A stretch of DNA of 64,000 nucleotides from Protula sp. h YS-2021 (taxonomy: Eukaryota > Annelida > Polychaeta > Sabellida > Serpulidae). The translations under genes were made by a program, and so were the position numbers. How positions within the stretch are numbered: position 1 is the first letter of the stretch; each line of letters opens with the position of its first letter. Positions 212-44,700 of the stretch are shown here, one piece after another. The notes under the pieces were generated by a model, which had not been told where the DNA came from, did not search any database, and saw nothing but the letters and a program-made list of their open reading frames with translations. Location of the stretch: assembly GCA_949752745.1 (NCBI GenBank), contig OX457032.1, positions 12,659,543 to 12,723,542 of the forward strand, in the 5' to 3' direction.

Positions 212-3200
212 TTCCCTTGAAGCGAATAGATGTTAAAGCACTCATTCAGGGCTTCATCGCCAGTGTGGAGACAAAGCTTGTGTATGAAAACAGCAGCGAA
301 AACCCAATTGAGGCAACATTCACTTTTCCCATCGACGACAACAGTGCTGTGTACAAGTTTGAAGTATTGATAGGTGGAAAGCTCATTGTAGGCGAATGTC
401 AAGATAAGAACCAGGTAATACATGCTGTGGGGTGTGGAGAATACGAACTTCAAGGTTTGTAAATTTGCTAATTATGTCTCCCCGACCAAAGGGAGACATA
501 AGGTGTTTGTCCGTTCTGTGTGTGTGTGGATGTGCGTCCCTGTCTGTTGTGAGCAAAATGTTGTGTGCAAGATATCCAGAGAACGAAAAGTCGAATAGAC
601 TTCAAACTTGGTCGGGTTATACCTTGGTTAGGTCGACCGGTTCAACTAACTTTTGACCCGTGTTGCAGTATTAGGGCAGGCGTATGACGCCATTGCGTAA
701 AAATCTTGTGATATTTCTCAGCCACTGAACGTTGTGAGAAAGTTCAAACTTGGTGGGATTGTTGCTTGGTAGGCCCGAAAGATTCTGTCAAATTTTGTCG
801 TAAGTAGAGCGAACCAGTGCGGCGTATGGCATCATCACGTAAAAATGAATATATTTTGAACAAGATCTCATGTGCAAAATATCTCGATAACGGAAAGTCA
901 TGTCGACTTCAAATTGCATGTAGGTATTCCTTGGGTCAGTTGGACGTCAACACGTTACATATGTGTATATTGTGAACAAGATCTTGTGTGTGAAATTTCT
1001 CGTTAACGGTTAGTCGAGTCGACGTCAAATTTTATATGGATAGTCCTTGGCTCAGTCGGACAGTTCTTTTAACTTTGCGTTGCGGTTTCCCGGTATCAAT
1101 TTTGGTATCTAGTTCACACGATAATGATGCCAATCCCAACAAAAATTCGAAGTGGCCACCAGAATCTGTGATCAATTTTTCCAGGGTGAAGCTAGTGAAG
1201 TTCAGTGTATTTCACGTCTCATCAGTGAAACTCAGTGCAAGTATAATTTTCTGCTGGAACTGAATTTTAATCGGAAATTGATGTTTGGGAACTTAACAAA
1301 AAAGAACGTATATTTTATGTGAATGACCCAAAATTTACATTTCCCCCAGCCGTCTGTTGTGATGGATATATGGTTCATTAGCAACATGAAATGAGACAGT
1401 TTTATACCTTTCCTCTGGGAACCCTTCTATTAAAGGGAATTGAACAGAATTAAAATTTGTTGCAGGCGAGACAGACGTACAACGATGCCATAGCAGCAGG
1501 TAAGACCTATAATATTTTCCTTGCACTCAAAGCTACTTTGCTGCTGAAAAGTAGCAAGTCACAAAAAAATGTTGATAAAATCTAGGAAAAATATTCAAAA
1601 TGCAGTATATATTCAGCTGTGAAATGTTCATCTGTTTTATGCAAAGGTGACTCGGCGTTTCTGATGGAAGAGAAGGGGGACAGTGGTGATATATTTGAAT
1701 GTACTGTGGGCAATTTACCAGCGAAAACCGAAGCCACTGTGACCTTCACGTATGTGACGCAATGTCATGTGACCGGAAATATGGTTGAGTTTGTTTATCC
1801 CTGTGTGTTAGCTCCGCGATACACTCCTGACGGTAATTTCATCTTCAGTGTTGCTTAATGAAATTTTATGAGATACTTAGTTCATCTGTAGAATTAATTC
1901 ATTAAGTTAATGTGAAAAAGGTTCTCCCGATACAATTAACATCTCGAAAATCTGTTCAGGGTTTAATTGTAAGAATGCACTGAAAAGTTCAGTACGCAAC
2001 AGTGAAGCAGTGTGCCTGTTAGTTAAATCTGCCGTGTCTACACTTCCTCTATTTCCCGCATTACATGTAGCAGCAACGTCGGCCAGCCAGGCATCCAGCA
2101 CGAATCAGGCATCGTCCACGTCACGGGCAAGGGCATTAAAATGGTCGTCGGTGCCTGTGGGCGAACTGCCGTACAAGGCTACTGCTGTGGTTTATGTGCG
2201 CTGTTCCGAACCACAGAGCATTGAAAATGTCGAGGTGAGTGTAGGCTATAACTATGAATGATCTATTGTTTAACTGAGTTTTGAATCGAGTGGAGCATTT
2301 AAGGTTTTGGGAACCAATTTAAGATTTCAACTACGCCAGTGTGAAAAAGTGTAATTTTACATAAAGTGTAATTTTCCTCATTTCGTCGGCGTCGATCCAA
2401 TGTAGAACCCAGTGTAACATGAAGTATTTAACGAATATAACAATATTAAAAATACGCCGTATGGTGGTAGGCTTGGTATCAATTGTAAGGTTTGGGAAAA
2501 TACCAATCCGATTTACCAAATATTTAAAATTTTGATACTAATTACTGGAGAGTAAGTAATTTGCCTTATCATCTTTGAGTTGGCGGAGATTACTTAAACG
2601 CTGAATTCTTTCAAAACGCGAAAGGGCCAAAGATTGACTCAGACATATCTGATTTCTGAATAAAAGTGTGTTTGATGTTTATAGTTGAATATGGCTTTGG
2701 AAAAGAAGTCATCTTTCTTTGAAGACCAGAAGGCTAAAGTGAGTATTGCGGAAAGGCAATATTTACCTTTTTTTGTTGCAATAATCACTGCGTTGGAATC
2801 AACTAAAGTGAAATCGAAGAACGAATTTTTGTATCCGGTAATGTACCCTTCGTGTGAGCCGAGGTCGCTCATTTTTTGTATCCGATAAGGTACACTGCGT
2901 GTGTGCTTAGGTCGCTCATTTTTTCTATGCGGTAATGTATCCTTTGTGTGTGCCTAGGTCGCTCATTTTTTTGTATTTGGTAATGTACCCTTCGTGTGTG
3001 CCTAGGTCGCTCATTTTTTCTATGCGGTAATGTACACTGCGTGTGTGCCTAGGTCGCTCATTTTTTCTATTCGGTAATGTACCCTTTGTGTGTGCCTAGG
3101 TCGCTCATTTTTTCTAATGAGTTCCAGTGAGGGGTTCTGTGCTTTTCAATAGCCTTGGTTTGCATGTACAGGTTACATTGAGCAAAGGGATGAAGCTGGA

Positions 3201-6200
3201 TCAGGATCTTAGGGTTGACATTACGTACAAGGATTTGTTTAAGCCGGTGTGTTACACAGAACTTGGAGATCCCGAACGATGTGAGTTACGTTGTATATTA
3301 CGGTGAGGCCTTGCAAGCCCACTGCTGTGAAAAGAACTACTAAGTTCAATTTAAATATTCTCAAATATGTTAAATACAAAGAAATTGATAAAAGAAAAAT
3401 GCGAACCTTTTCAAAAAACATAAAAACAGGTATCAGCAGTAATTATGTAATTATATTTATGCAATAACATCAATGACAAAATTGTATATGGCTGATTTTC
3501 AGTGCTTCATGTTGAAATTCCAAAGCAGGTGTAAACTTCAGTTCTATAGTTCAAGTAACCATTTCTGAGACTTTGGGGCATTTGAGCAAGAGACTGAACC
3601 GCTTATGTGCCTGGTGTCGGTTTGTCCGTCACGAGGTTCTGCTGTGTTTAATTCAATAAAGCAAGTCACCCAGTCTGAGAATATATAAATATACAGTAAA
3701 CAAGTGATAGTTTTTAACAACGGCTTATAATAAAAACGATATAAAGAAATTTGGTTCTGTATAGCTGGCATGCTAGCAAACGACATCATGATGGTCCAGT
3801 TTAAACCGGATTTGGACAGAGGATTGGAAACACAAGACACTCGTGGGGAATATATCTTCGTTCTCGACAGATCAGGTATTGATTACTAAATCGATTGTGT
3901 AAAGTCAGTATCACCTTCATTTTGACTGCAACAGTTAAGTTTTATTCACATCATCCAATATTTTCATAATCGGTTCTTAAATATCATCCAAGCGTCCTGA
4001 CTTCACGTAACTGATGAATTGTTGAAGAAGTTTAGGTCAGCCTAGCTCGTCTTATTGCATAATTAACCCATATTTTGTTTAAGCATTGCGATTATTTTTG
4101 TAGGATTGTGACTTTGTATTTTTTAACTAGGTTGTTCTAGCGTTGTGACTCTTGAATGGTGACTCATGTGTACTCTTACGTTGTGACTGTTGTATTGTGA
4201 CTCATGTGTTGCTGTTGCGTTATGAATCTTGCATCGTGATTCATATACATTTTTTACGTTTTGACTGTTGCACCGTGACTCCTGTGTTGCTCTGTCATTG
4301 TGACTCTTGCACCGTGACTCATGTGTTGCTCTGCCATTGTGACTCTTGCACCGTGACTCCTGTGTTGCTCTGTCTTTGTGACTGTTGCATCTTGACTCAT
4401 GTGTTGCTCTGTCATTGTGACTCTTGCACCGTGACTCCTGTGTTGCTCTGTCATTGTGACTGTTGCATCTTGACTCATGTGTTGCTCTGTCATTGTGACT
4501 GTTGCATCTTGACTCATGTGTTGCTCTGTCATTGTGACTCTTACACCGTGACTCATGTGTTGCTCTGTCATTGTGACTGTTGCATCTTGACTCATGTGTT
4601 GCTCTGTCATTGTGACTCTTACACGGTGACTCATGTGTTGCTCTGTCATTGTGACTCTTACGCCGTGACTCATGTGTTGCTCTGTCATTGTGACTCTTAC
4701 ACCGTGATTCATGTGTTGCTCTGTCATTGTGACTCTTGCACCGTAACTCATGTGTTGCTCTATCATTGTGACTCTTGCACCGTAACTTATTTGTTGCTCT
4801 ATCATTGTGACTCTTGCACCGTGACTCATGTGCTGCTCTGTCATTGTGACTCTTGCATTGTAACTCGTATGTTGATCTATATGTGACTCACGCTTACAAC
4901 ATTGAAAATTTGTGTCGTCTTGCAGGTAGCATGGGTGGAGACAGGATTAAAAACGCGACGAAATCTTTATTGAAATGTCTAGAACTGTTACCAAAGGATT
5001 GCTATTTTAACATCGTCAGTTTCGGAACACATCTTGAGATTTTATTCAGCAGGTATATACTCCTTTATATATCTTATTCTCTGCTCTTGTATTGGAAGTA
5101 AATTCTAATTAAAAGATCAAACTGAAATGCAATACTTGCTTAAGTAATTATTTTATTTTTATGCAGTTAAAAATTAAATCAAAAAGAAAATTCTATAAAA
5201 AAATTGCATCTTTGTGCGCCATGTTGAATCTTGTACATCTCGTTATGTTGAGATTGGGCATGAGAAACCTGAATATTTCAAAAGTGAAACTTGAATATTT
5301 GGACGGGTACAGAGGTAGAAATTAATATTTTGTGTCAGCAGCAAACATATATTTTGGCAGTCACTCCGACTGTCACTCGCTATTTTGTCGTAAAAAAATT
5401 GAAAGTGTGAAAATCAGGGCGTCGAGGCTGCCGCTAAATAATGCAGCGTGGCAGCGGAACGCCCTTCCCTCGAGTGGATACTTGATACTTGATGCTTGAT
5501 ACTTGTGTTGATTTAAAATGTGGTTGTTTGCAGAAAGACTGGTCCATGCGGCGTCAAGATGAGCGATAATAATTTAAAAACGGCAGTGTTGAAAGTAAAC
5601 AAGATGGACGCCGATTTAGGCGGCACGGAAATGGAAAAGCCGTTCGAGTGGATCTATTCACGGTCTTGTATACCTGACTATCCAAGGCAGGCATGTGGTG
5701 GCTTTATTAGCATTCTTTGCATGGCTGTCTGGTTCAGATTTTCATATTAAATGTTCACGTCAGATGTATGTTTGTAAGGGACAAAAAGGGCTCTTTAAAT
5801 TATTATTATCGATCTCTGGTTCTTTATTTTCTTTGCTTTCTTAGCCAGCAAGTGTACGTGTCATCGGAACATTGACATGTAAGTGTAACTATAGTAAAAC
5901 CTCCGCTAGCGAAAGCCCCTAAGATGGGAAGAACCTCTGATGTCGGAGTACGTGCTTTGGCCCGCGATACTCACAGTGTCATCAGTGACCGATGCAGTAC
6001 ACGATTGCTGGGATGGGTGCAGTTAGCGCTTGTTTCCACGGTTACATTGTATAGCCTGATCAATCCCCTGCTGCTAAATAATGTCGTCATTGTCAACCAA
6101 TCAAAGCACGAATTAAAGTCGGTCAGGTCAGGAGTTCCCCAAATAATGTAGGTCAACTGGGTAAATTTTGATAACGCTGTATATATGAAAGATACGGGCA

Positions 6201-9200
6201 TTGAACCACTGCGACGTTCTTGGGCAAGTGACACCCAACTGAATGTGGTAAAGTAAATATGCTACTGCTTTGGGGTAGCATTTTTGTAAAGGTCTGGCAA
6301 GTGTACACTGTTGACCTTACCAGATGTTGAAAGTCCGATTTGGCTTATGTGATGACGTAAGCGGTAATGTTGCTGTTGTACAGGTTATATTACTCACAGA
6401 TGGTGCTTATTACCCTCTGGATAAATTTGCGAAGCTCGTTAAAGCAAATAACGGAAATACCAGGTGAGTTACGCTTGCGATTTAACACCTATACTAACAC
6501 CTATACTAAGTTAAAACTACCGTTGATTTGAAACTTGAAAAACTATCCAAACATTTTTTTATCAACTGGAATACAAACTGAACTGAAGACTGCGGTGTGT
6601 TTGCGCAATTTTACTTGAATACAAAAGTTTCGACTGTCTTGTGAAGAAAAGTAATGTGTTGTCGGTCCACCGTCGTCCTCCCCACCACACCCCCCCCCTC
6701 CCTCCCCGCCAACCTCCTGCCGCGTCGCGATGGAAGACTGGAACGATAGAAGTATGATTTGTTCTTCCGGTGCTACCCAGACTTGGGAGGATGGGTCCAT
6801 ATCTGGCGCATGTTGGGGAGTGAACTGGTTTGACCACTATAACTAGTTTGACCACTATAACTAGTTTTTACTGGCAGGGTATTCACCATGGGGATAGGTT
6901 TTGGTGCGTCCACTGCGTTGATTCGGACTTTAGCCCGGGAAGGCCGAGGACGGTGTGAATTCATGCGAGAGGATATGCACAAGCTGCAGAAACAAGTAAG
7001 CTTTGAATAGAATCCCGCCAACAGATGTCAGTGTAAGGATTTCATTAAAACCGGAAGGGGCCTTTCTGGTATGGCATGACTGAAACAGGATGTTGAGTAC
7101 TGATAGGCCTAAAGCTTTCAAACGGATAAATAATAAGCAAATGTCGAAAGTGGGTTGAAAGAAGATATGGACGACTAATCAAGTTCTTTAATACTACAGG
7201 TGGAGATGTTGTTGTCATGTGCTATGTCACCTTCAATGATGGATGTGGGTATCAAATGGGAATGCACGCCACCCTGCCGCGGCTCACTCATTCCGAAAGA
7301 GTTACCGCCGGTGTTCACGGGGCAGACGCTGGTGGCCTACATACTAGCTACCGCTCAGCCTGCACCCAGAACCAAAGTAGGTAGTTTTGATTCCGGAGCT
7401 AAGAATTAATTGGTTTACATCATCTCTTGTTGGAAACGTTTGAGTTTGGCATATTTTGTCTGCTTATTGTGTTTTGAGCTTTATTATAAAAAATACATCA
7501 AACAGTAAAGAACATTTGGTACAGTGGATTGTTTTGGAAACGGAAGAAGAATTTCTTATGCAGACCAGTACGAAAATTGTTAGCATAGCAAAATGTGGTG
7601 AGACAACTGCCATCTCCTCGTTATAATGTATATTAAGTAAAATTCAGAAACTATATTTTACGAAATTTCTTTTAAACTGTATTTAAATTTCACTCAGAAC
7701 TGACAATACGTGCTTGATACCATATGCCTTGTAGAAATCTGATTTCCGGTTATACCACGTTTATTGGGCACACCGCTTATTGTATTCACAGGCGAAGGCG
7801 AAGCAGATGAAGGTCACGCTTTCGGGTGTGCTGAACCGAAAGGACGTCACGTTGACCTCAGACTTCAAGGAGAATCTATTCGTGGATGATTTCGAGGCCG
7901 ACTTACCAATACACAGAATGGCCGCCAAAGCCTATATTAAGGAGCTCGAGGGGGACGAAGGTATGTGGCGCTGTGGGTTAAGGATGGGGGGCGGGGGGGG
8001 GGGGGGTTCGATTAACGAATCACCATATGTTGAGGATTTCATGCTCAAAGGGGAACAGACTAGTTTCAATGGGATTTGGTCGATTCGGCCCAAAACCAGT
8101 TCGGTCCAATATGGGTGAATCGTCCCAGTATTTTTTTCACCTGACCGGTTCAGCCCAAGACCAGTTCGGCCCAACTTAGATGTGTCGGCCCAATGTTTTT
8201 TAAAGAGATCAGAAACCGTTTCAATATGGCGTAAAATGGAAGGATTCCAACTTCATTTATGAAAAAGAATTAGGGGAACCCGAAGCAGAAGGCATTGTAT
8301 TTCATTTTTTTCGAGAGTGAAAGGTTTCGTTCAACACAAGGTGTGTGAGTCCCGAAGCAAGATACAAACGAAAACGCCTCTGGTGGGAACAGAGCTTGTA
8401 GCAAGGTTTTCTCGAGAAACCTGCATGTAGCATGAGGTGTAGCCATGATTTAACTATCTGCTTTGTAGTGTGAAGTGGTTTTGTAAAAGTGGAACAAACG
8501 AAAGACGGCCGTACGCCCCCATGGATTTGGTATTATCGGGTAGTAAAGTCTAAGATTAAGAATGCGGGTGATAAATTATTCTGCCCGCCGTTTTCGTACA
8601 TTGCGCGTTGTATCGAGTGGCTGACTGTTGATGATGCGTTCCGTTGGTGTAGAGTTTCGAGTATCTGACTATTGGTGATGCGTTCCGTTTGTGCAGTTTC
8701 GAGTGGTTGACTGTTAGTAATGCGTTCCGTTTCTGTAGAGTACCGAGGACAGAACCAAAACAGTATATTGCTTGTGAGCCTGTCGGCGAACATCATGAGC
8801 CGCTACACGTCCTTCGTTGCCGTTTACAAACGGTCAGCCGCTGACAAGGTCAAGGACAAGGCGGATCACGTGGACATCCCAGTAGCCGAACGGCAACAGA
8901 GTAGCAGTGTATGCTCAATATTTTTGTTCTTATTTTGGAATGGTTGGGATGTTTTTACCGTTGTTGTTAATGTAACAACAATAACTACAACGGCAACCAC
9001 GAAAGAAGGGATTGTTGGAATATCACCTTTACTTAAAACAAATGCTCCAGATAATGAGGGAAGTGTGGTTGTTTGGTTTTAGAATGGGAGGGGATAGGGC
9101 TAGCTGCCGGTAAGATCACACTGCTTTTTCTAACTGTAATAATCAGTCATTTGGGTTGCAGCTATTGTCCGAGCGACGGTAATTTAGTGCGTATAGGATT

Positions 9201-12200
9201 TGCCGCAGGTAAATTCAAATTCACTAAAACTGCCACGACTTGTAGAAACAAATGAAAGAAAAATAGGCCATAAATGGTCAATTTTCTGCGCATATGTTTG
9301 ATTGCTGTGCTGGCAGAAGCTCGTAAGTACCTTTGTTATGTGCCAGCTCTAGCTGTTCACTGTGGCAACAACTGGAGCTGACTTGTCATTGATCGTCATG
9401 GCAACGGTTACTCGGTACTTGTTGCTCTGTATCAGGTGCAGCAATTCAATGTTAGCAGACAGTATGGAGGCGGTAGTTGTAATTCATCTCAACTTTTCAA
9501 GTACCTCAACGGGAAAACCGCCGATATTCCCGCAGCTCCACAGGCAGCAAATAAAACAGGTGTGACGTCGTACAGTACGTCATCTTGCTGTTGTAAACAT
9601 TTTGGGTGGCTCTGTTTGCAAATCAATAATGCAGAAAAAATCTTTGAAAAAGTGTGGGTCTTCCCTAAAATACTGTACTTACGTCAAATAATATGATTTA
9701 TTTTTGTTGTTGTTTTGTTGTGAGGTTTATAGTTGCCCTGCATGAGAACACTTCTGGATGATATGTCATTGCCGTGTGTTCCCAGAAAGCCGTTCTCAGG
9801 AAACATTCCTCGACACGTGGTCGGAAAGCAGTAGCTCAGACGGCAGCGACATGAGCTCACCGGAAGCGGAAAAAGCTGCTCCCAAAACAGGGGAAAACAA
9901 GTGCAAACCTCGGAATCTGAAACGGAAAGGAAATGTGTCAAAGTTTACGGTTAGAAAGAGGAGGAAGATCTTAGAGTGCGTAGCAAGGAGCGTGTTTGCC
10001 CCAGGGAAAGATGGATATTACTATCCAGGCGTCGCCATAGAAACTAAAGGGTAAGACGATTATTCTTTATAACAGTATTTATAACAGTATTTTACCTCTC
10101 ATAGTTCAAGGTGTTCTAAATATGGTTCTTACTTTCCTAAGAAGTCTTTAGTTTTTTTCGGTGAATATTTGGAGCATAACACACATCAGTTAAGAGTTCT
10201 GTACAGGTGTCAATTTCTCAATTTATACAAGAGCGCCTTTAGCACGCATTTAGATCTGTGAAGGGTCTGTTCGAAAGAATTGTGTGAGGAGGAAGGTTTG
10301 TACTCGTGTGCGCATGCGTGTCATCATAGGCTTTGTCTTAAGTTTTTCTCTGGAAATTCAGAAACAAATTTATGTGAAGTATCTTTTTATGTTGGGTGGT
10401 GTTTGCAGCAATCATCACAAACTACGGTTCAAGGATAACCAGACGAAGGTTTACAATACAAATCAACTGCTAGAAGCTTCTAAGCTGTCGCCAATAGATG
10501 TCGTTAGCGTGCACGCCGGAAAACAACACTATGTGTGGGCGATGGTTTTAGAATACACTGCTGAGCAAGATGCGTATCGCGTGGCAACAGGCGACGGCCG
10601 AATAGTCCTGTGCGTAGGCCATTGTACCTGTGTACGAAGCAAAAAAGCCAGTATTAAAACGAAAAACTATATTTTCCTGGATTTGTACAGTAATCTTTTA
10701 TTCCCCACAATGGGAGGGGGGGGGGGGGATATATGCGATCGACCGTGTGTCGGTCTGTCATCAACAGCTTGTTAACACGATAACTTAAAAACTGCTGCAA
10801 GGATTTTAATGAAACTTGGTACGTAGCTTCTATGGGAACAAACACAGATCGGTATTTTAAATGGGCCAGATTCGTCCAAGGAAAATGGACCAACTGGACT
10901 TGGAAAATTTCAGCTCTTGATTGACTATTGATGGCCGTGTTTAACTGATGGGGGCCCTGTGGGGAATATATGGGCTATGCACTCTGTTCTAGTGCCAATA
11001 TAATCTCAAGCTCTTGTGATAATTTTGCTTTTGAAATCTTCTTAATTATCTGTCAATTGATTAAAATTCTTTTGAATTTGTATGTAAATATCTATAATAA
11101 AATAATGTTCGCTCTAGTTTAAATTCTCCCACGCGAGCCAGAACATTTTTTTTAGTGCGTACCGTAAATTATTTTTTTAACCCGCAACAGATGTTTGGTT
11201 CAGGATCTGGTGCTACCGCATGCCACGGGTCAGGTGCTCGCAGCCAGGTGCAGCCATGACCCAGAGCCACAAGTGTAAGAAAGCCCGTGTTCTTTTGTTC
11301 ATTAGAAATACAAACGAGTTGTGTTAATATTTTAATCATAGCAAAAAGTAAGGCCTTTCTCGATGTTTTAGACATACTATTTTTTTTAATTAAATCAGTG
11401 ATACCTCGAAGATATGGAAATGCGTTGGCTAACGTGACATAAATTTATCGTACTATTAATTACATATTAAGCACGAAAGGTGACGGCGACCACGATATTC
11501 ATTTCCTTTGTGTGCAGAAGAACTAACAATAGCCACAGAAGTACCACCTGCCAAACATCTTTTGTTTTCAAAACATTTGCTTTATGTTCTTTGCTGCAGG
11601 CTGGTGAAGCATTGTAACTCTGCTGGTAGTACCGTGGCGGTGTCGACCTCGGATCTGGCTGAGCTAGGAGATCAAGGCTGGATCAATGCTAACATTGTGT
11701 CCTTCTACATACGGTACAGTGCATGTACATTAGTGGCCTTGACCTTTTTCGCTTAAGTCCTGTGTTCATTATCTCTCTCTCTCAGTGCAAATTAAGTTGC
11801 AGCTGGAAGATTCATGATTTTTTGTTATGTTTACACACATTCCTGGTGATAACATATGCACATTTTTGTTTTTGGGATGTTTTAGCAGTTCGACTGTATT
11901 TTATATATTAACCAGCATTCCCAAGTTCGTCCTGTACTTATGTGAAAAATGTGAATCTGCTTTAAAAATTTGAAAAATACACAAACAGAGATCAGATTTG
12001 ATGATATAAGCAAAGAAGTGAGTTTACTTGTAAATTAAGAGGAGGGTTAATTTTGTTTAAACACAATGGTTCCCGCGCGCCTGTACACTGTTTGCTCTTG
12101 TCTCCCCAGTTAAGGTTGAGGGCTATTGTTTGCAGTTACGGGTGAGGGCTATTGTTTGCTTATCAGTCTCGGAGATCCGAGAGCCGGGGTAATTTGTTTG

Positions 12201-15200
12201 TATATAGTGCTAGTCGGTATCAGGGGGGATTAAATCCTTAGTATAAATAAAAAAGCGCTACTGGCTTTGCCACATTGTTCTTAGCAGCGGCAGCAAATGC
12301 ATAACAAAGTGTAAAATAAAAACAACGATAGAAAGGCATGGCAGAATCTGAGGATTTTAAGAAATATTTAACGGATAGAAAAGTAAGACAAGGTACTATA
12401 GAGAAATTGATAAAAGAGGAGCTTGGTGACATGGAACTTCTCGCCGAAATGAATAGTGAACATATAACAAAAATGAAGCTGTCAACGGGGCAAGCTATAG
12501 CTCTAGGGAAAGCTATTTCAGAGTTGAAAAGAGCAAAAACTGCACAAAAACCCACACATACCGACGACAGCCAGCCACCAGAGCTCATCCCAGCAGCTGG
12601 GATACCGGTAGTGGACACCCAGGCACTGCGAGATAGGGATATCAACGAGCTCCTGAACTCAGTCAAGGAAGCAGACCTCCTCATCCAAGGGAACACCCCA
12701 GACCCTTGGCTGCAAGGACGGACGCCAGGTACAGTGAAACCTCTACTTATTCAGGATTTCTGTGGCCTCGTTGTTAGCCCCAACGAAGAGGAGTCGTTTC
12801 AGATCGGGTCAGCTCGGTTAATTACCGATTCGCGTGGGCAAAAGCCTACTCCAGCGGCCACAAGTGTCGAGCAATACTTAGTGGGATCTACTAGGATTAT
12901 GGCCGAACTTTTACGCACGGGGCAATTGGCCTGTACTCCGACCGCGATCTCCTGTTACATTAAATATCAGATAAAAATCGGGGAGTACCTTCAGACATAC
13001 CCACGCGATAGAGTAATGCTCATGGATCAAGAATACCGTATACAGCAAGCGGCCGGTTTGCTCAACTGGGGGGACGATTCTTTCCATTTGGAACTGAAAT
13101 ACCTTACCAGCGACCCAACAGCAAGCAAACCACTGAACCGACGGGACACCGTACTTAAGCCACGCAAACCCGCACCAGTTGACCCGTCCTCAGGAATCGA
13201 AATCTGCAGAAATTACCAGTCCCAGCAAGGCTGGTCCCGTTCGAATTGCAAATTCGCGCATGTCTGTATCAAACCAGGTTGCTTCAAATCCCACCGTGAA
13301 TCACGCCATTGATATTACGACGTCTCTAGCCCACTAAAGGATAACTTAGACACATGGCTATGCAAACTGAAAACGGATAAGGATTATGATTTCATAGTAA
13401 ACGGATTAATACATGGTTTTGATATTATAACACCAGGACAAGAACTAGCCCCTGTCGATTCACCCAACAGCCGAAAAGCCGAACTGACCCACAGATCAGA
13501 GGTCGAAAAGCAGATACTCGCAGAAATAGCTCTTGGGCGCCATATCAAAGTGGCCCAAAAACCTGATATTATAAGCCCATTATCTTGTGTACCAAAGGAT
13601 GACGGGTCTGTTCGTTTGATACATGACTGCTCCCAGCCCCCCGGAAATAGCCTAAACGACCACGCTACCTCTGATAAACATTCTTTTGTGACAGTTGACT
13701 CTGCTGTGAATCTGATAAATCAAGGCTAGTTTATGTCAAAAGTGGATCTTAAAAATGCATATAGATACGTTTCAATTAGCACAGACTCTCAACGAGCACC
13801 GGGACAAAAATGGAAATTTTCTGGTGACAGCTACTACACATACATAGTAGACACCCGACTCCCTTTTGGAGCTTCCCTAAGTGTTGGCGTTTTTCACCGT
13901 ATTACACAAAGTGTTGTGCGCATGCTCAAACGGAAAGGCGTCTGCGCCATAATATGTTTTCTAGATGACTTTTTTATCGCTGCAGAGTCCTATAACGACT
14001 GCACAATGGCTATGGACCTGCTTCTTCAAACTCTCGAGAAACTAGGTTTTTCTGTAAGTTGGAATAAATGCGTGGGACCCTCGACAAGAATCACTTTTTT
14101 AGGTATAATTATCGACTCAGTCAGCGGTACGCTCTCCATACCACAGGATAAGCTTAAAGATATCATGACCACTCTGACGACCTGGGACTTTGCGAAAGAG
14201 CGTGCAACCAAACATGAGCTCCAGGTGTTAATAGGCCGTCTCAACTGGATTAGCTCAGTTGTTTATTGCGTTCGGCCTACCCTTCGACATCTAATAACGA
14301 TAATGACAACCCTTAAAAAGCCACACCACCGCGCACGCATATCGCGCGATATGCAAACTACCCTGCGCACAATCACGGATCTATGCAGGCGCTTCAATGG
14401 CACGTCATTTATGCTTAAAAGAACGGAGCCCGAAGCTGCATATATCGTTACCGATTCCAGCATACAGGGTGGGGGCGCCGCCCTAATACAGGACTCTAAA
14501 GTCCTAGACTGGTACTACAGCAATTGGGATAGCGATTTCCCTCGAATAGCGAAAACGCATATAAATATCAAAGAGCTAGCAGCAGTAACGCTCGCGATAC
14601 GCATCTGGGGTGCACTCTTCAGAAACAAGACTATTGTAATACGTACCGACAACACAGCTTCTCTCCATGCGGTTAACAACGGGGCTATTTGAAACGCACT
14701 TGGCAGCGATTTACTACGCGAATTATTGATTCTTTGTACGTGTCGTAATATTCGGATAGTTGCAAAGTACATATCCACTGAAAATAATTGGATGGCAGAT
14801 TCAATCAGCCGGATCCATGTACTTCCGCATGCTACATATGTCAGTCATCGAGTGTCAGGCCTCGACTTCTTTAGCCACATGTCTACTAAATCCCGTGATT
14901 TCATACTACAGGAGTGGTTCAGCAGGAGAGGTTACTGGATAACGAGCTAACTACTTACCGCCCGGCGGCGTTCTCGGACACAACCAAAGCGTCCTACCGC
15001 ACCCATCGTGATACCTACCTTCGGTTCTGCTCTTTTTTTGGTTACACCCCCGCCCCCGCGAAGGCGCTGACCTTGGCGCGCTTCGCCGCGTTCCTAGCAC
15101 GCACACTCAAACCTACCTCCATACGCTGCTATATCTCGGGCGTGCGCCTGCTTCACCTGGAACTCGGCTACCCAAGCCCAAGTGACGATAACTGGACACT

Positions 15201-18200
15201 CAGTAGCACAATGAAGGGTATTACACGTACATTGGGTACCCAACCGAGGCAAAAGCTCCCGATAACCCTGGAAATCCTCAAGCAAATCCGCCGACAGCTT
15301 ACGCTCACTACTAGCTTCCAACTGTGTTTCTGGGCCGCCTGTTTAGTAGCTTTCTTTTGCTACTTTAGAAAGTCAACACTTCTTACCAAATCCCGCACCA
15401 GCCACGATTGTCGCAAGGACCTGTGCCGTGAGGATTACTCGCCAACAACCGAGGGAGGTCTTGTACGGGTGAAATACAGCAAAACGATGCAAAAGTTTGA
15501 CTCTTACCTGCTGGTCCCCCTCCCCCGTATCGACGGTTGTGATCTGTGCCCCGTTTCCGCTATGGACTCTTTCCTTAGAGCCTCGACTCATGGAAGTAGC
15601 GCTCCAATATTTTCTTACACAGAGGGTCAAACCCACTCCCCAATGACCCGCAGCCTATTCGTCGATAATCTGCGCAAGCTACTAGAGAGACTCGGTTTCC
15701 AGCCTACCAACTACTCTGACCACTCTTTCCGCCGAGGAGGTGCATCTTTTGCTTTTCAATGCGGTATACCGAGTGATGCCATCAAAACGCAAGGGGCCTG
15801 GAAATCTGATGCCTACGAACGCTACCTCGAAATCCCCCTCACAACACGCCGCACCTATGCGCAAATGTTGGCAGATCGAATGAAGCATCGCTGATCGTCA
15901 GCCCCCCCCCCCCCTTTTTTTAATCTTGACTGTATTACTACCACTACACAAAGGGTTGGAACGTCGTTTGGTGATATTAAAATATTAAGGAGTATTAATT
16001 TGCCAATACAAATGTTTTATCGATGATTTTGCAAATAAATCAAGTTATCCCAACCCTGTATTTCTTTAAATATTTAAAGGCTAGAGACGGAACATTTAAA
16101 TGTTTAATGTAGAACTGAGTAAGCTATCCGTTTTTCAGTGAGATGTTATTGAAGAATATTCCAGAAACAATACAACAACAAGTACTTGTCTTTGACAATG
16201 ACGTAACTCAGCTGCTAGCAGACGACATTTACACCCAGCGTAAGAACAGCAAATCAAGGTATGTCACTGGCTACTCAAATCAAATAAAATAAAAAAACAC
16301 TTCAAAAAATGTCTAATGGAGAAAATAAAACCGATCGTGTATGTTACATGCAGTGACATTCTTGAACTTGGTCCTTTGTAATAAGCGCAATGTGCCAAGA
16401 AGGTTTCAAGTAGTGTAGTAATTGTGTGGCATTGTGTGTAGAATAGTTTGTATTTGCTACCTCGATACCCCGATATTTGGTCCATAACTGGAATAATATC
16501 GGCAGTCTTTTGCTGGCCGTGCTAAGTGTTTTCGTATTCGATAATCCCAGTATTCGACAACTCGAAAATTTATTTTTGGTCTAGAGTTAACGAACACCAA
16601 TTGTATATTTCGCGTATATAAAGTTTGCCATAAAGAGAAATTCTCTTTAAAACGAAAGTGTTGAGATCCCACACAGACTTATCATATAGTATTATCAGCT
16701 CCAATGCATCAGGCAGAAGAAGCAAAGTAAATACAATTATATAAACAGAAAGGGCCAGAGATTTTAAAATTCATATTAACATTATTATTTAAATCTAATA
16801 AGTTTCACAGATTTGCATGTGTTTTTAGATCTCTGTGAAATAACATATAAGACAATTCACGAAAATACCAAAAATAAAAAAAAAAAATAAAAAAAATGCG
16901 CATGAAATTTCAACAGATAACGCGAATTTGCTAATTGCTTTTTGTAATTTCCCGAAGTGGCAGATTTCATCCATTGCTCATGACATAACAATATGACTGA
17001 GAATGGATTTGTTTTCAGATGGAATCACGTGAACATAGAAGCGGTGAGAGCTTCGGTGGAAGACGTGGATTTCAGACAGAAAAAAATGATCTTCTTTCCT
17101 TTGTTCGACGAGTATGTCTTGCCTGCCAAAAAGAATTGAAGAATTAATGGATAAAAATTTATAATAACGCCTGGATGAAACATGCGCTGTTTCTCGTTAT
17201 CCGATCGAGTCAAGAAAATTCCAAAATTGGAAAAAAAAAGAAATGAAATATTTGAAATGGAACTCGTAAATACATGATTTAAAAGTGTGTTGTGATATGA
17301 AGTTTATCATGATAATAGAGTTGTTGCAAAAACATTACACCGCACCTGGCGTAACGAAGTAACAAAAGTGAAAAAGTCAAGAAGCAAACGATGATCGTTT
17401 GACAAATTCACTGCTGATAACTGTTTGCGTAAATTGATTGCAATATAACTGTGAAAACGGATGTGTAACGATTTTCAGGGTTCACTGGTATGTGATTGTG
17501 GTGGCCATGGAAACGGTGCCTTTTGAGAAAGACAAGTTCAGGTAGTGCTACTCAAACTACTTATAGTTATAATCAGTTTGGTCTTAGGAAAACCGAAACT
17601 GGAAGGGAATTAAGAAATTTTGAATTGTTATGCAGGTAAATAAAGAATGTAAGAAAATTGCACCTGATTTATTTCAAAATAGTTACTAACTAAACTACTT
17701 AATATCAGGAGTGGGAAAAAAAACTTCAAAACCAGTAAAGATGTGCAATAATTTAATTTAACGCCTTCCTCTTAATGTCTGTTAGGGGGACGTTTCTTAC
17801 AATGGACAGCTATTTTGAAGCCAAGAGGGAACTTGAAACTAGTTTCTTAAAAAGGTAAACTGTTTGAGAATCTGAGAGGGGGCTGACATAGTGCAGATTC
17901 GTTAATCAGCTGTTGTTAAAAATACAGCCAGAAGTGTGAATTACTTTTAATGTAGAAATATTAGATCTATTGCCCTCGTTTGGTCGGGCTTCCTTTACGT
18001 GTATGAAAGCGAGAGTTACTTTGGTGCATGCAGTCATGACTGTCCTTGGCTGGATTAAAACACCAGTTCTTTCACCAGATTTACTATAAAGTGTCAGAAT
18101 TACACTTTTATCTAATACTTTGTTTTCCGACAGCCTGCTCGTGAGGCTATTCAACGAACAGGGACTAAAATTGGACATCACACCCGGTGCAAAGTCCCTG

Positions 18201-18499
18201 GATGTGCCAGCGCAGAGGAACGAGTGGGACTGCGGCCTCTATATGCTGCTGAACATCAGAACTGCTCTTCAGGTACAAGTTCTGATGCTTAAAAATAACA
18301 TCACAAATTGCTTGTTTTGTTTACCTTTTCAAACTTGGCCTAGCTGTTTAATTTAAGTAACGGTCTAAGCGAAGGTTTTCTGATGTTGCAGGAGAAGTTG
18401 TTACCCCGCCCTCATTTGGAATGGTTTAGTCCGGGTGATGCGCTCAAATTGAGGCAAGATATTGCCAGGCATATCTTAGACTGCAGTGACATTCAGTAG
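212..18499 (+). CDS. VIT-VWA (VWA5A-like) / Tudor-like / Ulp1 (C48) protease fusion gene, 5' partial
   Basis: Coding exons seen: 212-414, 1466-1499, 1617-1832, 2074-2234, 2685-2738, 3172-3280, 3765-3875, 4926-5052, 5534-5690, 6384-6463, 6878-6995, 7200-7376, 7792-7960, 8739-8908, 9436-9559, 9786-10050, 10409-~10609, 11600-11713, 16139-16258, 17019-17111, 17479-17541, 17786-17854, 18134-18272, 18392-18499 (TAG). Phases agree at every junction and give about 1,059 residues after the missing N-terminus. Order: VIT domain (residues ~1-150); VWA with MIDAS DRSGSM split over 3765/4926, the Thr in LGGTEM and the Asp in LLTDGA; VWA5A-like beta region to ~670; Ser-rich acidic stretch and a basic KRKG/RKRRK patch; Tudor-like segment with GKDGYYYPG; Ulp1 domain with WINANIVSFYI, the catalytic His in VHWYVIVV, Asp in TMDSY, and the Gln and Cys in PAQRNEWDCGLYML. 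Ulp1 proteases cleave SUMO-like conjugates; VIT-VWA proteins act in protein binding. Role of the fusion is inferred. Least certain junction: 10609/11600. Confidence 0.8.
477..1030. repeat. dispersed repeat family copy, in an intron
   Basis: This intronic block begins TCTCCCCGACCAAAGGGAGA and contains recurrent phrases such as 'GATATC..GAACGAAAAGTCGA..GACTTCAAA', partly repeated two or three times inside the block. A related start and phrase recur at 21502. It is a non-coding dispersed repeat; class not identified. Confidence 0.6.
2834..3116. repeat. 47-bp minisatellite, ~6 copies
   Basis: Tandem units of about 47 bp, recognisable by 'GTAATGTACCCTT', 'GTGCCTAGGTCGCTCA' and a T run, repeat six times in the intron between exons 2685-2738 and 3172-3280. 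Some units differ by a few bases. Confidence 0.85.
4150..4880. repeat. 39-bp minisatellite, ~18 copies, within VWA intron
   Basis: Units of 39 bp containing 'CATTGTGACTCTTGCACC' and 'TCATGTGTTGCTCT' fill most of the intron that splits the MIDAS motif (exons ending 3875 and starting 4926). Because 39 is divisible by three and no stop occurs in some frames, it creates long spurious reading frames on both strands. Confidence 0.9.
5685..5696 (+). other. non-canonical GC-AG splice donor
   Basis: The VWA exon 5534-5690 must end phase 0 to join VILLTDG at 6384. At the homologous point the sequence is CAG followed by GCATGT, with no GT nearby. A GC donor gives the continuous PDYPRQVILLTDG expected for a VWA domain. 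Confidence 0.65.
8613..8745 (+). repeat. 42-44-bp tandem repeat carrying the splice acceptor of exon 8739
   Basis: Three head-to-tail units share 'GATGCGTTCCGTT' followed by a TAG or CAG and then a TCGAG/CCGAG sequence. The last unit supplies the acceptor of the exon starting at 8739, so each earlier unit offers a similar AG after a pyrimidine-rich stretch (near 8652 and 8696). Confidence 0.7.
12338..14950 (+). pseudogene. DIRS gag-RT-RNase H reading frame with three in-frame stops
   Basis: One frame runs through the gag-like part (12338-13312, ending in a Cys/His knuckle, ICRNYQSQQGWSRSNCKFAH), the RT (VDLKNAYRYVSI, LPFGASLS, and the catalytic box FLDDFF), and an RNase H-like stretch (VTDSSIQGGGAAL, RTDNTASL). 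It is broken by TGA at 13310-13312, TAG at 13727-13729 (just before the conserved KVDLKNAYR) and TGA at 14690-14692. Homology continues directly across each stop in the same frame. The last two are therefore probably nonsense mutations; the first could be a natural gag stop. Confidence 0.75.
14914..15894 (+). CDS. tyrosine recombinase of the DIRS-type element
   Basis: An uninterrupted frame of about 326 residues overlaps the end of the RT/RNase H frame in a different phase. It has a SAM-like N-terminal DNA-binding region (TYLRFCSFFGYTP..ALTLARFAAFL) and catalytic-core signals: an early Arg in YFRKSTLL, the box DHSFRRGGASFAF (His-x-x-Arg), and a Tyr nucleophile in DAYERYLEI. Such enzymes integrate circular cDNA copies of the element without target duplication. 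No start is certain; an ATG is not obvious at the 5' end, so expression by frameshift or reinitiation from the upstream frame is possible. Confidence 0.8.
   Translation: MVQQERLLDNELTTYRPAAFSDTTKASYRTHRDTYLRFCSFFGYTPAPAKALTLARFAAFLARTLKPTSIRCYISGVRLLHLELGYPSPSDDNWTLSSTMKGITRTLGTQPRQKLPITLEILKQIRRQLTLTTSFQLCFWAACLVAFFCYFRKSTLLTKSRTSHDCRKDLCREDYSPTTEGGLVRVKYSKTMQKFDSYLLVPLPRIDGCDLCPVSAMDSFLRASTHGSSAPIFSYTEGQTHSPMTRSLFVDNLRKLLERLGFQPTNYSDHSFRRGGASFAFQCGIPSDAIKTQGAWKSDAYERYLEIPLTTRRTYAQMLADRMKHR
16139..18499 (+). CDS. Ulp1/SENP-type cysteine protease domain exons of the fusion gene
   Basis: These six exons, with 11600-11713 upstream, encode the whole papain-like Ulp1 fold of peptidase family C48. 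Seen in order: WINANIVSFYI (substrate-binding N-terminal helix), FFPLFDEVHWYVIVV carrying the catalytic His, FLTMDSYFEA carrying the Asp, and VPAQRNEWDCGLYML carrying the oxyanion-hole Gln and nucleophile Cys. All four active residues are present, so the domain is probably active. Family members remove SUMO or NEDD8-like modifiers. The domain ends the protein, 44 residues after the catalytic Cys, as is usual for SENPs. If the upstream VWA exons are a separate gene, this would be a stand-alone protease starting near 9786. Confidence 0.85.
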
Positions 18500-19420: not shown

Positions 19421-20700
19421 ATGAATAAGAACGAGTGTACAGCACTGATAAAAGATATATAATTAAATGGCGTGAAGGATAGAGATGTAATAGAAGCGTG
19501 CTTCTTATAACATTGTCAAATATTGGTGTGCGGAATTCAAACGTGGTCCAGAAAGTACTGAGGATACACAGCGATCAGCGGAGTGAGGTGAACAGTCCTA
19601 AAAGTGTATGCTGCGCATAACACAGTAAACCAAGACAAGAGCATAAATGTCAGACAGTGGGCAACAGTAAAAACAAGAGGTAAAAGAAAATGACATGAAC
19701 ACCTTGACATGAATATGCAATCAGCCGATTGGGTCACTCGAGTCTTAATAACAGGTCAGAAGCGATTAAAAGCGGATATCAGTCGGCACATGTTATGAGA
19801 ATGCCGCTCTGACCCCGAAGACTTTCTCATAGTGTTACCCAGGATAAACGTGGATTCATCATTTTGATCCTGAAACTAAAAGTCAAAACATCTTTTGGAA
19901 GGACACAGGTTCTCGTACTCTCAAAAAGTTCAAGGTCGTGCACTCAAATGGCAAAGTCGTCAGTGGGTTCAAGGTCGTGCTCTCAAATGGCAAAGTCGTC
20001 AGTGGGTTCAAGGTCGTGCGCTCAAATGGCAAAGTCGTCAGTGGGTTCAAGGTCGTGCCCTCAAATGGCAAAGTCGTCAGTGGGTTCAAGGTCGTGCCCT
20101 CAAATGGCAAAGTCGTCAGTGGGTTCAAGGTCGTGCCCTCAAATGGCAAAGTCGTCAGTGGGTTCAAGGTCGTGCCCTCAAATGGCAAAGTCGTCAGTGG
20201 GTTCAAGGTCGTGCCCTCAAATGGCAAAGTCGTCAGTGGGTTCAAGGTCGTGCCCTCAAATGGCAAAGTCGTCAGTGGGTTCAAGGTCGTGCACTCAAAT
20301 GGCAAAGTCATGGCATCAGTGTTGTTGAACTGTCTAGGAAAGGGCAGACCAATTATTAGTCCAGTATTATACAAGAATATCACATCGGCTAAGTAGAGAA
20401 ATAAAGAAGCGAAGAGGAAAACTACACAAGTGTGTCCCAAGACAAGGCGCCGCATGAAGAATTCACAAGTCGTGACGGCTGCTGGTACAGAATGCGTCGT
20501 CAGAATTCTGCACCATCTGGCGTATTCTCCAGACCTGGCCCCCTCTGACTTGCTTGTTTAAGACTGAAACCAGACGTACTTGGGCTAAGATTTGAGATCA
20601 TCAACACTGTTGGGGACGTCAGAAGAGTGTGATAAAATCTGGCTTACTAATGCTGAAAAAAATAGATGACCCTAGTATGTTGAGCTTCATAATTATGTAG
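19421..20700 (+). pseudogene. mariner transposase remnant
   Basis: Starts around MNKNECTALIK (a typical mariner N-terminus) and continues as fragments in several frames with many stops. WIHHFDPETK, the KKFKVV and GKVM block, and SPDLAPSD lie in the right order. The 39-bp array 19926-20313 interrupts the KKFKVV-GKVM region. Non-functional. Confidence 0.75.
19926..20313 (+). repeat. 39-bp minisatellite, 10 copies, expanded inside mariner transposase codons
   Basis: Ten nearly identical units, e.g. GGTCGTGCCCTCAAATGGCA followed by AAGTCGTCAGTGGGTTCAA. In the transposase frame each unit reads SNGKVVSGFKVVP-like, i.e. a duplication of the enzyme's own FKVV..SNGKV codons. The last copy flows into GKVMASV. 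Six middle copies are almost identical, so expansion or homogenisation was recent. Confidence 0.9.
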
Positions 20701-40724: not shown

Positions 40725-41648
40725 ATGCGTTGTAGTACTCGTAAATGTAAGCGAGGGGGTGCCGTCCTTTGCCAAGGCGATCTGGTACTGTGCGAAAGCT
40801 GTGATCTTGAGCGGTTTGGTCGATTGACCGGTCCCCATAAAAGAGCATTTACGAAAGAAAATACCATGGACCGTGTTACGAAACAGCCAGAGGAGATACC
40901 AACGAAAACGCTCACAAATGATATAGACCTTGTTTCCATCATGAATCGATTATCAAAACTGGACGACCTGGATACTATAAAAACACAACTCTCAGGCATC
41001 TCGCAGCAGAATCAAAGACTTCTAGAAAGGATACAAGTCTTGGAAACAGAAAATGCTGGACAAAAAAAGGATATCGTAGAGCTGCAAGCGACAGTGAATG
41101 TTCTGAAAAAGAAACTTGACGAACAGGAACAATACACAAAACGGGACAACCTGATCATATCAGGCCTGAAAATTGTGAAGCCATTTAGCTCAGCAGCCGC
41201 AAATAATGATACGCCAGACGCTCGCCCAACCGAAGATGAAGCTTACTCGGAAAGAGATCGCAAAATAATGGCGCAAAACATAACGACGTTTGCAAAAACC
41301 AAACTGAAAATTGACATTGGTCCTGGTGATATCCAGGATGTGCACGCGCTGCCAAGTAAAACCCCAAACACACCAGGAACCTGTATTGTGCGCTTTAACA
41401 ACAGAAACGCGAGGGACAAATTTATTCAAGCACGGAGAAATTTAAAGGGAACCCAGGTTTACATAAACGAACATCTTACCAACAGAAACTCAGAAATATT
41501 CAAAGCAGCCAGAAATCTACGAAAAAACAATGCGATCAAAAACACTTGGACTAAGAATTGCAGGGTTTTTGTGAGGTTAAACGACGACACAGTGAAACAC
41601 ATAGACGACCTGGCGTTCTTACATCATTTGACCAATGCAAGAAACTAA
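40725..41648 (+). CDS. LINE ORF1 protein
   Basis: From the ATG at 40725 the product is about 307 residues; the frame is open 24 codons further upstream without an ATG. It has an N-terminal Cys-rich part (C-x4-C-x8-C-x6-C-x2-C), a coiled coil with heptad-like Leu spacing (SQQNQRLLERIQVLETEN onward), and a C-terminal RNA-binding region resembling L1 ORF1p-like RRM (YTKRDNLIISGLK, CIVRFNNRNARDKFIQARR). Such proteins form RNPs with the LINE RNA. Confidence 0.8.
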   Translation: MRCSTRKCKRGGAVLCQGDLVLCESCDLERFGRLTGPHKRAFTKENTMDRVTKQPEEIPTKTLTNDIDLVSIMNRLSKLDDLDTIKTQLSGISQQNQRLLERIQVLETENAGQKKDIVELQATVNVLKKKLDEQEQYTKRDNLIISGLKIVKPFSSAAANNDTPDARPTEDEAYSERDRKIMAQNITTFAKTKLKIDIGPGDIQDVHALPSKTPNTPGTCIVRFNNRNARDKFIQARRNLKGTQVYINEHLTNRNSEIFKAARNLRKNNAIKNTWTKNCRVFVRLNDDTVKHIDDLAFLHHLTNARN

Positions 41649-41789
41649 TAGACATGATTATGGGACATCATAGCATATTGATTTCATTTGTCATAGCATA
41701 TTTGTGTGTGTATAAAATTCATTGTGTGGCAAAAATGAGTGTTATTATGGACGTTAAAATAGCTTGTTTTTATAGAAACATAGTCAGTT

Positions 41790-44700
41790 ATGGACAGTTT
41801 TCCTTGTAGTGTTTGTGCGAAAGGCGTTCGGCAAGACGCTATTCAATGCGACATTTGCGATCTTTGGGTGCATCGAGTGTGCTCAAAGCTAAAGAAACGT
41901 GACTTGTGTGTTTTAAGTAATGAGTGCTATCATTATTGTTGTCCTCCATGTTCAAATGTATTTCCTTTTATGTGTTTGACCGATGATGAATTTTTGTATA
42001 TAAATTCCAAACTAGAGATTGAAGAACATGTTTTTCAGGTGTATAACAAATGCGCTGAAATTACCGTAAATTCGTTTGTCCAATTCGAGAACACCCTTGA
42101 TGAGTGGGAGTTAGAAGGGGATCCCGACTGCAATTTTTTTAGTGCCTTTAATTCTGAATGTCATTACTTTACAGATTGTCAATTTAATGTTAAAACAAAA
42201 CATGTGAATGGTCTTTCGTTAATCCACTTTAACTCCAGAAGTTTAAACACGAACTTCAGTCACATTAAGGAATACATTACTTATCTTAGCAAAAGTTTTC
42301 ATGTTATAGCAATTTCTGAAAGCTGGTTAGACACAAAATCTGATGTAAATTGTTTTAACATCGAAAACTACAATATGTTTAATACCTTTCGTAGCAATAA
42401 AAGAGGAGGTGGTGTAACACTATATATACGTAATGACTTGAAAGTAAGAAAGCATGATGATTATTCGTGTGCTTGTGATGATGTCCTGGAAAGTCTAACA
42501 CTTGAGATATTAGTCGAAAACGGCAGAAATGTGGTGGTGTCGTGTATCTACAGAACACCAGGGTCAAGAATAGAAACTTTTCTAGAATATATTGAAAAGC
42601 TCTTGAAAAATGTTAAGAACAAAACGCTGTATTTCTGTGGTGACCTAAATCTTGATTTGCTGAAGTACAGTAGTCATAGAGGCACACAAAACTTTGTTGA
42701 TTTAATGTATAGTTACGGCATGTTTCCCATGATCACAAAACCAACAAGGATAAGCTCGGTATCTGCTACGTTAATAGATAATATTTTCACAAATGAATTG
42801 TCACACAATAGTCTAAGTGGGATACTGTGTAACGACATCTCAGATCACTTACCAGTGTTTTGTATATGTCCACACAAAGGGATTTCCGAAAACGTGCAAA
42901 AAAGGTTCAGGTTTGTTCGTAAATTCACTGACGAAAATGTATCTGCTTTGAAACGTGATCTTGACTGCCAAAGCTGGGATAATGTTTTCGATTCAGACAA
43001 TGTAAATGAGGCTTATTCGAAATTTGTAGATACGCTGATATACTTATATGATAAAAATTTGCCCAGTAAAAAAGTTATGGTCAATTCGAAAAAGGTTAAT
43101 AAACCTTGGATGACTAAAAGTTTATTGAACGCATGTAAAAAGAAGAAACTTCTGTATATGAAATTTGTGAAGTCAAGAACTACAGAAAATGAGGCTAGGT
43201 ATAAAGCGTATAAAAACAAACTAACATCTGTTTTGCGTTTATGTGAGAAAAATTACTACAGCACTTTACTCGAACAGAACAGGAAAAATGCGAAGTCGAT
43301 ATGGAACATTTTAAATACAGTAATTAAAAAATCTAAGCCAGTCAATAGTCTGCCGCGTGAATTCACAGATTCGAAAAACAACACAATAAAAGGTAAAGAA
43401 AACATTGCCAACAGTTTTAACAACTTCTTTGTCAATGTTGGGCCAAATCTTGCCAAAGTAATACCTAAGCATGACGTAAATGTGTACCATTACATGAAAA
43501 GCGCAAATTTGAATACTATGTTTTTGAACCCAGTTGACGAAAAAGAACTTCTAAGTACTGTCCAAAGCTGTAAAAGTAAAACTTCGAGAGACTGTAACGA
43601 TATATCTATGGAATTTGTAAAAGTTATATTCTGTTATATAGCCAAACCCTTTTGTCACATATGTAATCTGTCGTTCCAAAGCGGTGTATTTCCAGAGAAA
43701 ATGAAGGTTGCAAAGGTAGTACCACTGTATAAATCCGGAGACAAATCTTCGTTTAATAATTACAGGCCAGTGTCCTTATTGTCTCAGCTGTCAAAAATTC
43801 TCGAAAAATTATTTGATTCGCGCTTGCAAAATTTTGTCGATAAAAATAACTTGTTAAGTAATTGTCAGTATGGCTTCCGATCAAATCACAGTACTTCCCT
43901 AGCTTTAATGGAACTCATTGAAGAAATATGTTCGGCGCTAGATAGAAAACAGTATATGGTTGGAGTATTCATTGATCTAAAAAAAGCCTTTGACACCATT
44001 GACCACACAATATTATTGCAGAAACTTGAGCACTATGGTGTGAGGGGTACTGCAAACGATTGGCTCAGAAGCTATTTAACAAACAGAAAACAATATGTTC
44101 AGATCGATGAGTACTCCTCCGAACTCTTAAGGATAATATGTGGTGTCCCCCAAGGCTCCGTCCTAGGTCCGAAACTTTTTATTCTGTACATTAATGATAT
44201 TGGTAATGTGTCTGATATCCTGAAATTTATTCTGTTTGCGGACGACACCAACCTTTTCAGAAGTGGTGCCGATCTTAAGGTACTATGTGATGAAATAAGT
44301 AATGAGTTAGGCAGATTACGCGTCTGGTTTGATGTAAATAAACTGTCATTAAATGTAGTGAAAACAAATTTCATGATATTCAGCAGGAAACCTGTTGGTC
44401 AGGATATCAAAGTACACATAAACAATAATATAATCGAACAAGTAAATAGCACAAAGTTCCTTGGGGTTATAATAGACGATAAGTTGAACTGGCGTGAGCA
44501 AATAAATAAAACAGTAAATAAACTTTCGAAATGTATTGGTATTATGTACAAAGCAAAGAATGTTTTAAATTCTCAAGCGTTACTGGTAATGTACAACTGT
44601 CTGTTTCTCTCCTACATGAGCTACTGCTGTGAAATATGGGGAAATGCATGTAAAACGAAATTAAATAATATTGTTATGTTGCAAAAAAAAGCTATTAGAA

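Follow-up and report, generated by a model that had tools for sequence, protein, structure and literature searches.

The subject of this analysis is a predicted gene in a 64,000-nucleotide stretch of the 863-Mb genome of the serpulid annelid Protula sp. h YS-2021 (G000:C9:12659543-12723542, hereafter the window), a stretch that holds zero N and in which the gene was rebuilt from sequence alone. We think it quite probable that this is a single gene, whose product would begin with a VIT-VWA core of the VWA5A type and continue through a basic linker and a Tudor-like module into a cysteine protease of the Ulp2/SENP type, with these three parts standing where VWA5A normally has its helical C-terminal domain (CTD). 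A preliminary description of this DNA had proposed an in-frame fusion of a VIT-VWA protein to a Ulp1-type deSUMOylase; the in-frame union of the two halves holds up, and the name of the enzyme proved too specific, given that Ulp2 and SENP7 and then SENP5 are the best matches, all of them weak. Added here to that description are the basic linker, the Tudor-like stretch, an upstream first exon and the missing CTD.

The domains of the predicted protein run in the order VIT, VWA with a full metal-ion-dependent adhesion site (MIDAS), basic linker, weak Tudor-like stretch and Peptidase_C48. A Pfam search of the joined protein, a check that the preliminary description had proposed, returned VIT (1e-32), VWA_3 (2.2e-19) and Peptidase_C48 (1.1e-15; 58.5 bits against a cut-off of 20.7), all over the curated cut-offs. 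Because these E-values are strong, the presence of both domain sets is more than chance; the joint itself is less certain. The residues previously described as kept in both halves are indeed in place: the MIDAS is complete (D297/S299/S301, T373, D400), and H968, D994, Q1037 and C1043 fall on the catalytic His, Asp, Gln and Cys in an alignment with Ulp2, where we take the MIDAS to be defined by DxSxS, T and D. The protease half matches solved structures in the order Ulp2 (5lnb, 2.8e-7), SENP7 (3eay, 6.3e-7), SENP5 (1e-5), Ulp1 (0.005) and SENP8 (0.027), such that its closest solved relatives appear to be Ulp2 and SENP7, to which it is weakly similar. Between core and protease, the region of exons 16-17 yields no Tudor assignment over the Pfam cut-off: Tudor_3 matches at E 0.001 (19.4-20 bits against 25.8) and DUF4537 at E 0.029 (14.8 bits against 27), both below threshold, and an NCBIfam search of the C-terminal half gave zero matches. 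Residues 714-734, read by eye, form a basic stretch that resembles a nuclear localization signal and probably directs the protein to the nucleus; reading of the sequence finds no obvious signal peptide.

The gene lies on the forward strand; within the window, its 25 coding exons (212-18499) join into one frame of 1077 residues whose sole stop is terminal (18497-18499). The preliminary description was thus right about the matching phases and the unbroken frame to the stop at 18499, and one exon short in counting 24. Nor does the gene start at 212, as had been supposed, since an additional 5' coding exon with a start codon lies about 2.4 kb upstream (window -2372 to -2333; L009:6628-6667); this first exon (ATG..G) contributes MSVYGLVDDSKKR and joins 212 in phase 1, making a complete predicted protein of 1091 residues from 26 exons, again without an internal stop. 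Splice sites are GT-AG throughout, apart from a GC donor (GC-AG) at exon 9. By the window's numbering, exons 1-3 (212-414, 1466-1499, 1647-1832) encode the VIT domain; exons 4-7 (2074-2234, 2685-2738, 3172-3280, 3765-3875) encode the region connecting VIT to VWA and the start of VWA, with D297 and S299 of the MIDAS; exons 8-11 (4926-5052, 5534-5690, 6384-6463, 6878-6995) encode the VWA domain, with S301, T373 and D400; and exons 12-14 (7200-7376, 7792-7960, 8739-8908) encode a post-VWA region that includes 'SRYTSFVAV' and is the final part alignable to canonical VWA5A (tblastn with the related proteins P0001 and P0015, extending to 8836).

Exon 15 (9436-9559) is an open linker exon with an AATAAA at 9550, and the intron that would connect the two halves, between exons 15 and 16 (9560-9785; 226 nt, phase 1), has a donor of 7.86 bits. 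Exon 16 (9786-10050) carries a Ser/acidic stretch, the basic stretch, the start of the Tudor-like region and a rival start codon at 9851, and exon 17 (10409-10609) carries the Tudor-like/DUF4537-like region. Both joints singled out in the preliminary description are as claimed, 9559/9786 being in phase 1 (G|AA, Glu) and 10050/10409 in phase 2 (GG|C, Gly). Exon 18 (11191-11274) is open, coding-like and 84 nt long, a multiple of three, and skipping it keeps the frame; it may be a cassette exon. Exon 19 (11600-11713) holds the N-terminal portion of C48, by alignment to Ulp2/SENP7, and the remainder of the domain occupies exons 20-25 (16139-16258, 17019-17111, 17479-17541, 17786-17854, 18134-18272, 18392-18499), as placed by Pfam and PDB alignments, with the catalytic codons at 17483-17485 (H968), 17805-17807 (D994), 18213-18215 (Q1037) and 18231-18233 (C1043). 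The 4.4-kb intron after exon 19 (11714-16138) contains a retroelement (about 12332-15894) on the same strand as the gene and with an interrupted frame; its reverse transcriptase was recognized in one of the three pieces scanned (RVT_1, 6.4e-17), and we call it DIRS-like because a downstream 331-residue frame, which has no Pfam match, reads as a tyrosine recombinase.

Is it one gene? The exon 15/16 join is a prediction that is supported, not proven, and as far as the sequence can tell, the evidence at the junction favours a fusion over two genes. Exons 15-18 are open, and the fused frame scores best of the three in our codon scores, which are simple scores of our own built from small training sets that excluded these four exons. 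From exon 14 up to the earliest ATG in exon 16, the bridge scores +0.19, and continued reading beyond exons 14, 15 and 17 scores -0.30, -0.35 and -0.22, similar to or under controls. These controls were stretches of the window and of neighbouring and paralogue loci on both strands, mostly noncoding with some exons and retroelement frames, a coding content that should inflate rather than deflate the chance fractions. The 63 nt before ATG 9851 are matched in score by only 0.4%, 0.3% and 0.2% of control segments with the three training sets. When control paths must reach the real bridge in both splice quality and codon score, an in-frame path occurs in 2.3% of 1500 controls, and one of the observed type in 0.07%; with looser splice thresholds and the codon score, the fractions are 4.1% and 0.9%. 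The exon 15 donor (7.86 bits) is ordinary within the gene's range of 2.6-12.1. As for a poly(A) site or new promoter between 9559 and 9786, which the preliminary description had named as evidence against a fusion, no AATAAA or ATTAAA lies within 9556-10652, with rarer variants present there, and the CpG profile, the only promoter test applied, gives no clear promoter signal near 9600.

Several points weigh on the other side. Without the codon score, 22% of the 1500 controls yield some in-frame path, and 37% do so at looser thresholds; the path thresholds were themselves derived from the observed joint, and a donor threshold of 7.9, just over the real 7.86, leaves zero path in the real region. 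Exon 15 is the weakest of exons 15-18, with 4.6%, 24.5% and 6.9% of controls scoring as high depending on the training set (the 24.5% figure comes from training on exons 19-25), and with that same training, exon 16 past its ATG is weak as well (13.6% of controls as high). Donors are weak at exons 14, 17 and 19 (2.6, 3.4 and 2.7 bits), and exon 16 contains a separate start codon, at 9851, whose -3 position is G. The substrate class depends on weak similarity. No relative with the joined architecture was found among the best 120 of 353, nor in searches with the C-terminal half, which can detect close relatives only. More generally, novel domain combinations in predicted genes may be prediction errors, as has been argued for lancelets (PMC4967905).

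These points can be arranged into other readings of the locus. One of them, possible if on the unlikely side and compatible with a fusion, is that the locus makes several products, the full-length protein together with a VWA-only or VWA-Tudor form, when intron 14 or 17 is retained and polyadenylation occurs early; the low-scoring donors of exons 14 and 17 would allow this, as would the AATAAA at 9550 and 11096 and the ATTAAA at 11060, all of which lie 3' of read-through stops, whereas the read-through tails are not coding-like and the 12 occurrences of AATAAA in the 9.8 kb scanned make a chance origin of these signals possible. We regard it as unlikely that there are two tandem genes here on the same strand, a shortened VWA5A-like gene whose end lies within or beyond exon 14/15 and a separate Tudor-like/Ulp gene starting at ATG 9851. 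Such a second gene would be self-contained, with 396 residues and the basic stretch close to its N-terminus, and its start codon has the G at -3 already mentioned; the AATAAA at 9550 could terminate a transcript reading on past exon 14; and the introns after exons 16-23 are all in phase 2, eight consecutively, as opposed to the mixed phases of the VIT-VWA half, which suggests that the halves come from two sources. On the other hand, the 63 nt directly before ATG 9851, read in the fused frame, are free of stops and resemble coding sequence, read-through beyond exon 14 is not coding-like (-0.28 to -0.48), and the two genes would sit less than 1 kb apart. That the protease half is a recently captured transposon-borne Ulp1 domain or a decaying remnant is highly improbable and was rejected: there are 52 Peptidase_C48 matches genome-wide, with copies of one repeated family at five or more of the loci inspected, and a retroelement does sit in the intron following exon 19, but the half has ten exons, zero stops and its catalytic residues, and it lacks multi-copy relatives, all ten of its own-genome matches (E<=10; query, the half downstream of exon 15) falling within this locus. 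With 10/10 matches here despite the 52 C48 matches, the Tudor-like/protease half of the gene is single-copy, within reach of this search.

The VIT-VWA half, by comparison, has kin within the same genome and well beyond it. It gives 24 own-genome matches (E<=1), 14 at this locus, five in a paralogue on C3, two on C2 and one each on C1, C4 and C5, and several intron positions, compared by eye, are common to the window gene and the C3 paralogue. A search of the protein database with the whole protein returned 353 relatives, the best being from Mytilus (39% identity across 56% of the query); the first 36 rows include 31 named animals, with alignments that span 55-59% of the query and, in one case, 38%. 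In a tree of 25 rows (the window gene, the C3 and C2 fragments, and 22 of the 120 listed proteins), the window gene sits on a long branch in a clade of 11 (support 99/95) with its own C3 paralogue, four named bivalves and five unnamed proteins, a grouping with bivalve VWA5A, the C2 fragment falling outside the clade.

These relatives bring up the question of the CTD. Nothing in the window convincingly matches the helical CTD of VWA5A, the top hit (E 0.044) lying within the retroelement, and when the CTD of P0015 (Ylistrum) was searched against the genome (E<=10), there were two matches, on C3 (1.5e-6) and C1 (1.09), and none on C9. The canonical CTD pieces on C3 lie on the same strand as, and about 10 kb 3' of, the last VIT-VWA exon there, near C3:102254554-102255111; CTD pieces and VIT-VWA exons there are likely to belong to one gene. 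In the window gene, the Tudor-like/protease unit occupies the place where the CTD is expected. According to PMC10539598, many VIT-VWA relatives possess a CTD and others are without one; since the CTD is not universal in relatives, its lack here marks a variant.

Does the same joining occur elsewhere? PF02902 (C48) is missing from every domain list among the 120 best of the 353 relatives. With the C-terminal half as query, neither a search inside long proteins (the 7995 candidates with the most shared words) nor a search for the half alone (4927 candidates) gave anything below threshold in the protein database, which has 5.8 billion entries, so that even a true SENP scoring about 30 bits would miss the threshold and only close relatives are excluded. 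In the literature, judged largely by title and the start of the abstract, nothing on VIT-VWA joined to Ulp, SENP or C48 turned up. The joining of VIT-VWA to C48 is thus absent from the collections and literature searched, and we describe the gene as a VWA5A variant, not a separate class.

Among known systems, VWA5A/BCSC-1 and Dictyostelium Vwa1, which are intracellular VIT-VWA proteins, share with the window protein the VIT-VWA order, the MIDAS and the lack of an obvious signal peptide; the window protein differs in having no detected CTD and in ending with Tudor-like and Peptidase_C48 regions. The Ulp2 and SENP6-7 SUMO proteases share the C48 domain with its His, Asp, Gln and Cys, although the similarity is weak and the C48 domain of the window protein lies behind a VIT-VWA core. 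PARP4-like and other VIT-VWA proteins also couple the core to an enzyme or a ubiquitin-related module, in their case never, within those same 120, to C48: P0120 has PARP, and in the unnamed P0039 and P0044 a UBA-like domain (UBA_4, 2.4e-17 and 6.9e-17) at the N-terminus precedes VIT-VWA. These UBA-like and PARP modules indicate that the VIT-VWA family does acquire effector domains, and the UBA-like domains are a further tie of VIT-VWA to ubiquitin.

What might such a protein do? In PMC10539598, Vwa1, a VIT-VWA protein of Dictyostelium, is reported to co-precipitate with FbxwD, an F-box protein, and an interaction of human VWA5A with SPSB1, a SOCS-box receptor, is noted. The CTD is modelled there as a bundle of alpha-helices resting on VWA and is proposed to be autoinhibitory, and VWA5A is described as a conserved protein whose role as a tumour suppressor is poorly understood. 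If the transcript is spliced across 9559/9786 and the product is made as protein, its VIT-VWA core would bind partners, as relatives reportedly bind F-box and SOCS-box ubiquitin-ligase receptors, and would set the protease beside them for the removal of SUMO or another ubiquitin-like modifier. Without the CTD that is proposed to mask VWA, the adaptor would be left open for binding, and it would probably take the isopeptidase into the nucleus. The predicted role is thus likely to be that of a nuclear deconjugase for SUMO or another ubiquitin-like modifier, guided by a VIT-VWA adaptor that lacks the proposed autoinhibitory CTD. SUMO would be the likeliest tag because Ulp2 and SENP7 rank first among the PDB matches, with NEDD8 as another possibility. 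Tentatively, and as somewhat less likely than not, we extend this to the idea that a VIT-VWA adaptor associated with ubiquitin ligases lost its autoinhibitory CTD and gained in exchange a nuclear unit made of a Tudor-like module and a Ulp2-type isopeptidase, so that it would be always open and would remove ubiquitin-like marks at the sites where its relatives act together with ligases; it would be the first VIT-VWA protein with a protease of its own, as far as our searches show. A natural fusion of the VWA5A core to a protease for ubiquitin-like modifiers hints at the pathway that the core serves, and a gene with an open frame yet no CTD offers a natural test of the proposed autoinhibition model.

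Beyond these main features, the nearest AATAAA/ATTAAA 3' of the stop codon of the gene is at 19462, and it is followed at 19900-20330 by a tandem array of about 39 bp ('caaggtcgtgccctcaaatggcaaagtcgtcagtgggtt'), seen by eye. Another array of about 39 bp (4149-4883) lies in the intron preceding exon 8, with one frame open for 245 codons. Elsewhere in the assembly, COX1 on the mitochondrial contig (C218) reads through five TGA codons, and the genes of that contig that are recognizable by eye share one strand. Also by eye, a short frame with a P-loop-like motif lies 5' of the gene (L009:5252-5556), frames at 40860-45065 resemble a non-LTR retrotransposon, and a multi-exon gene on the forward strand at 51984-58350 resembles a tetraspanin.

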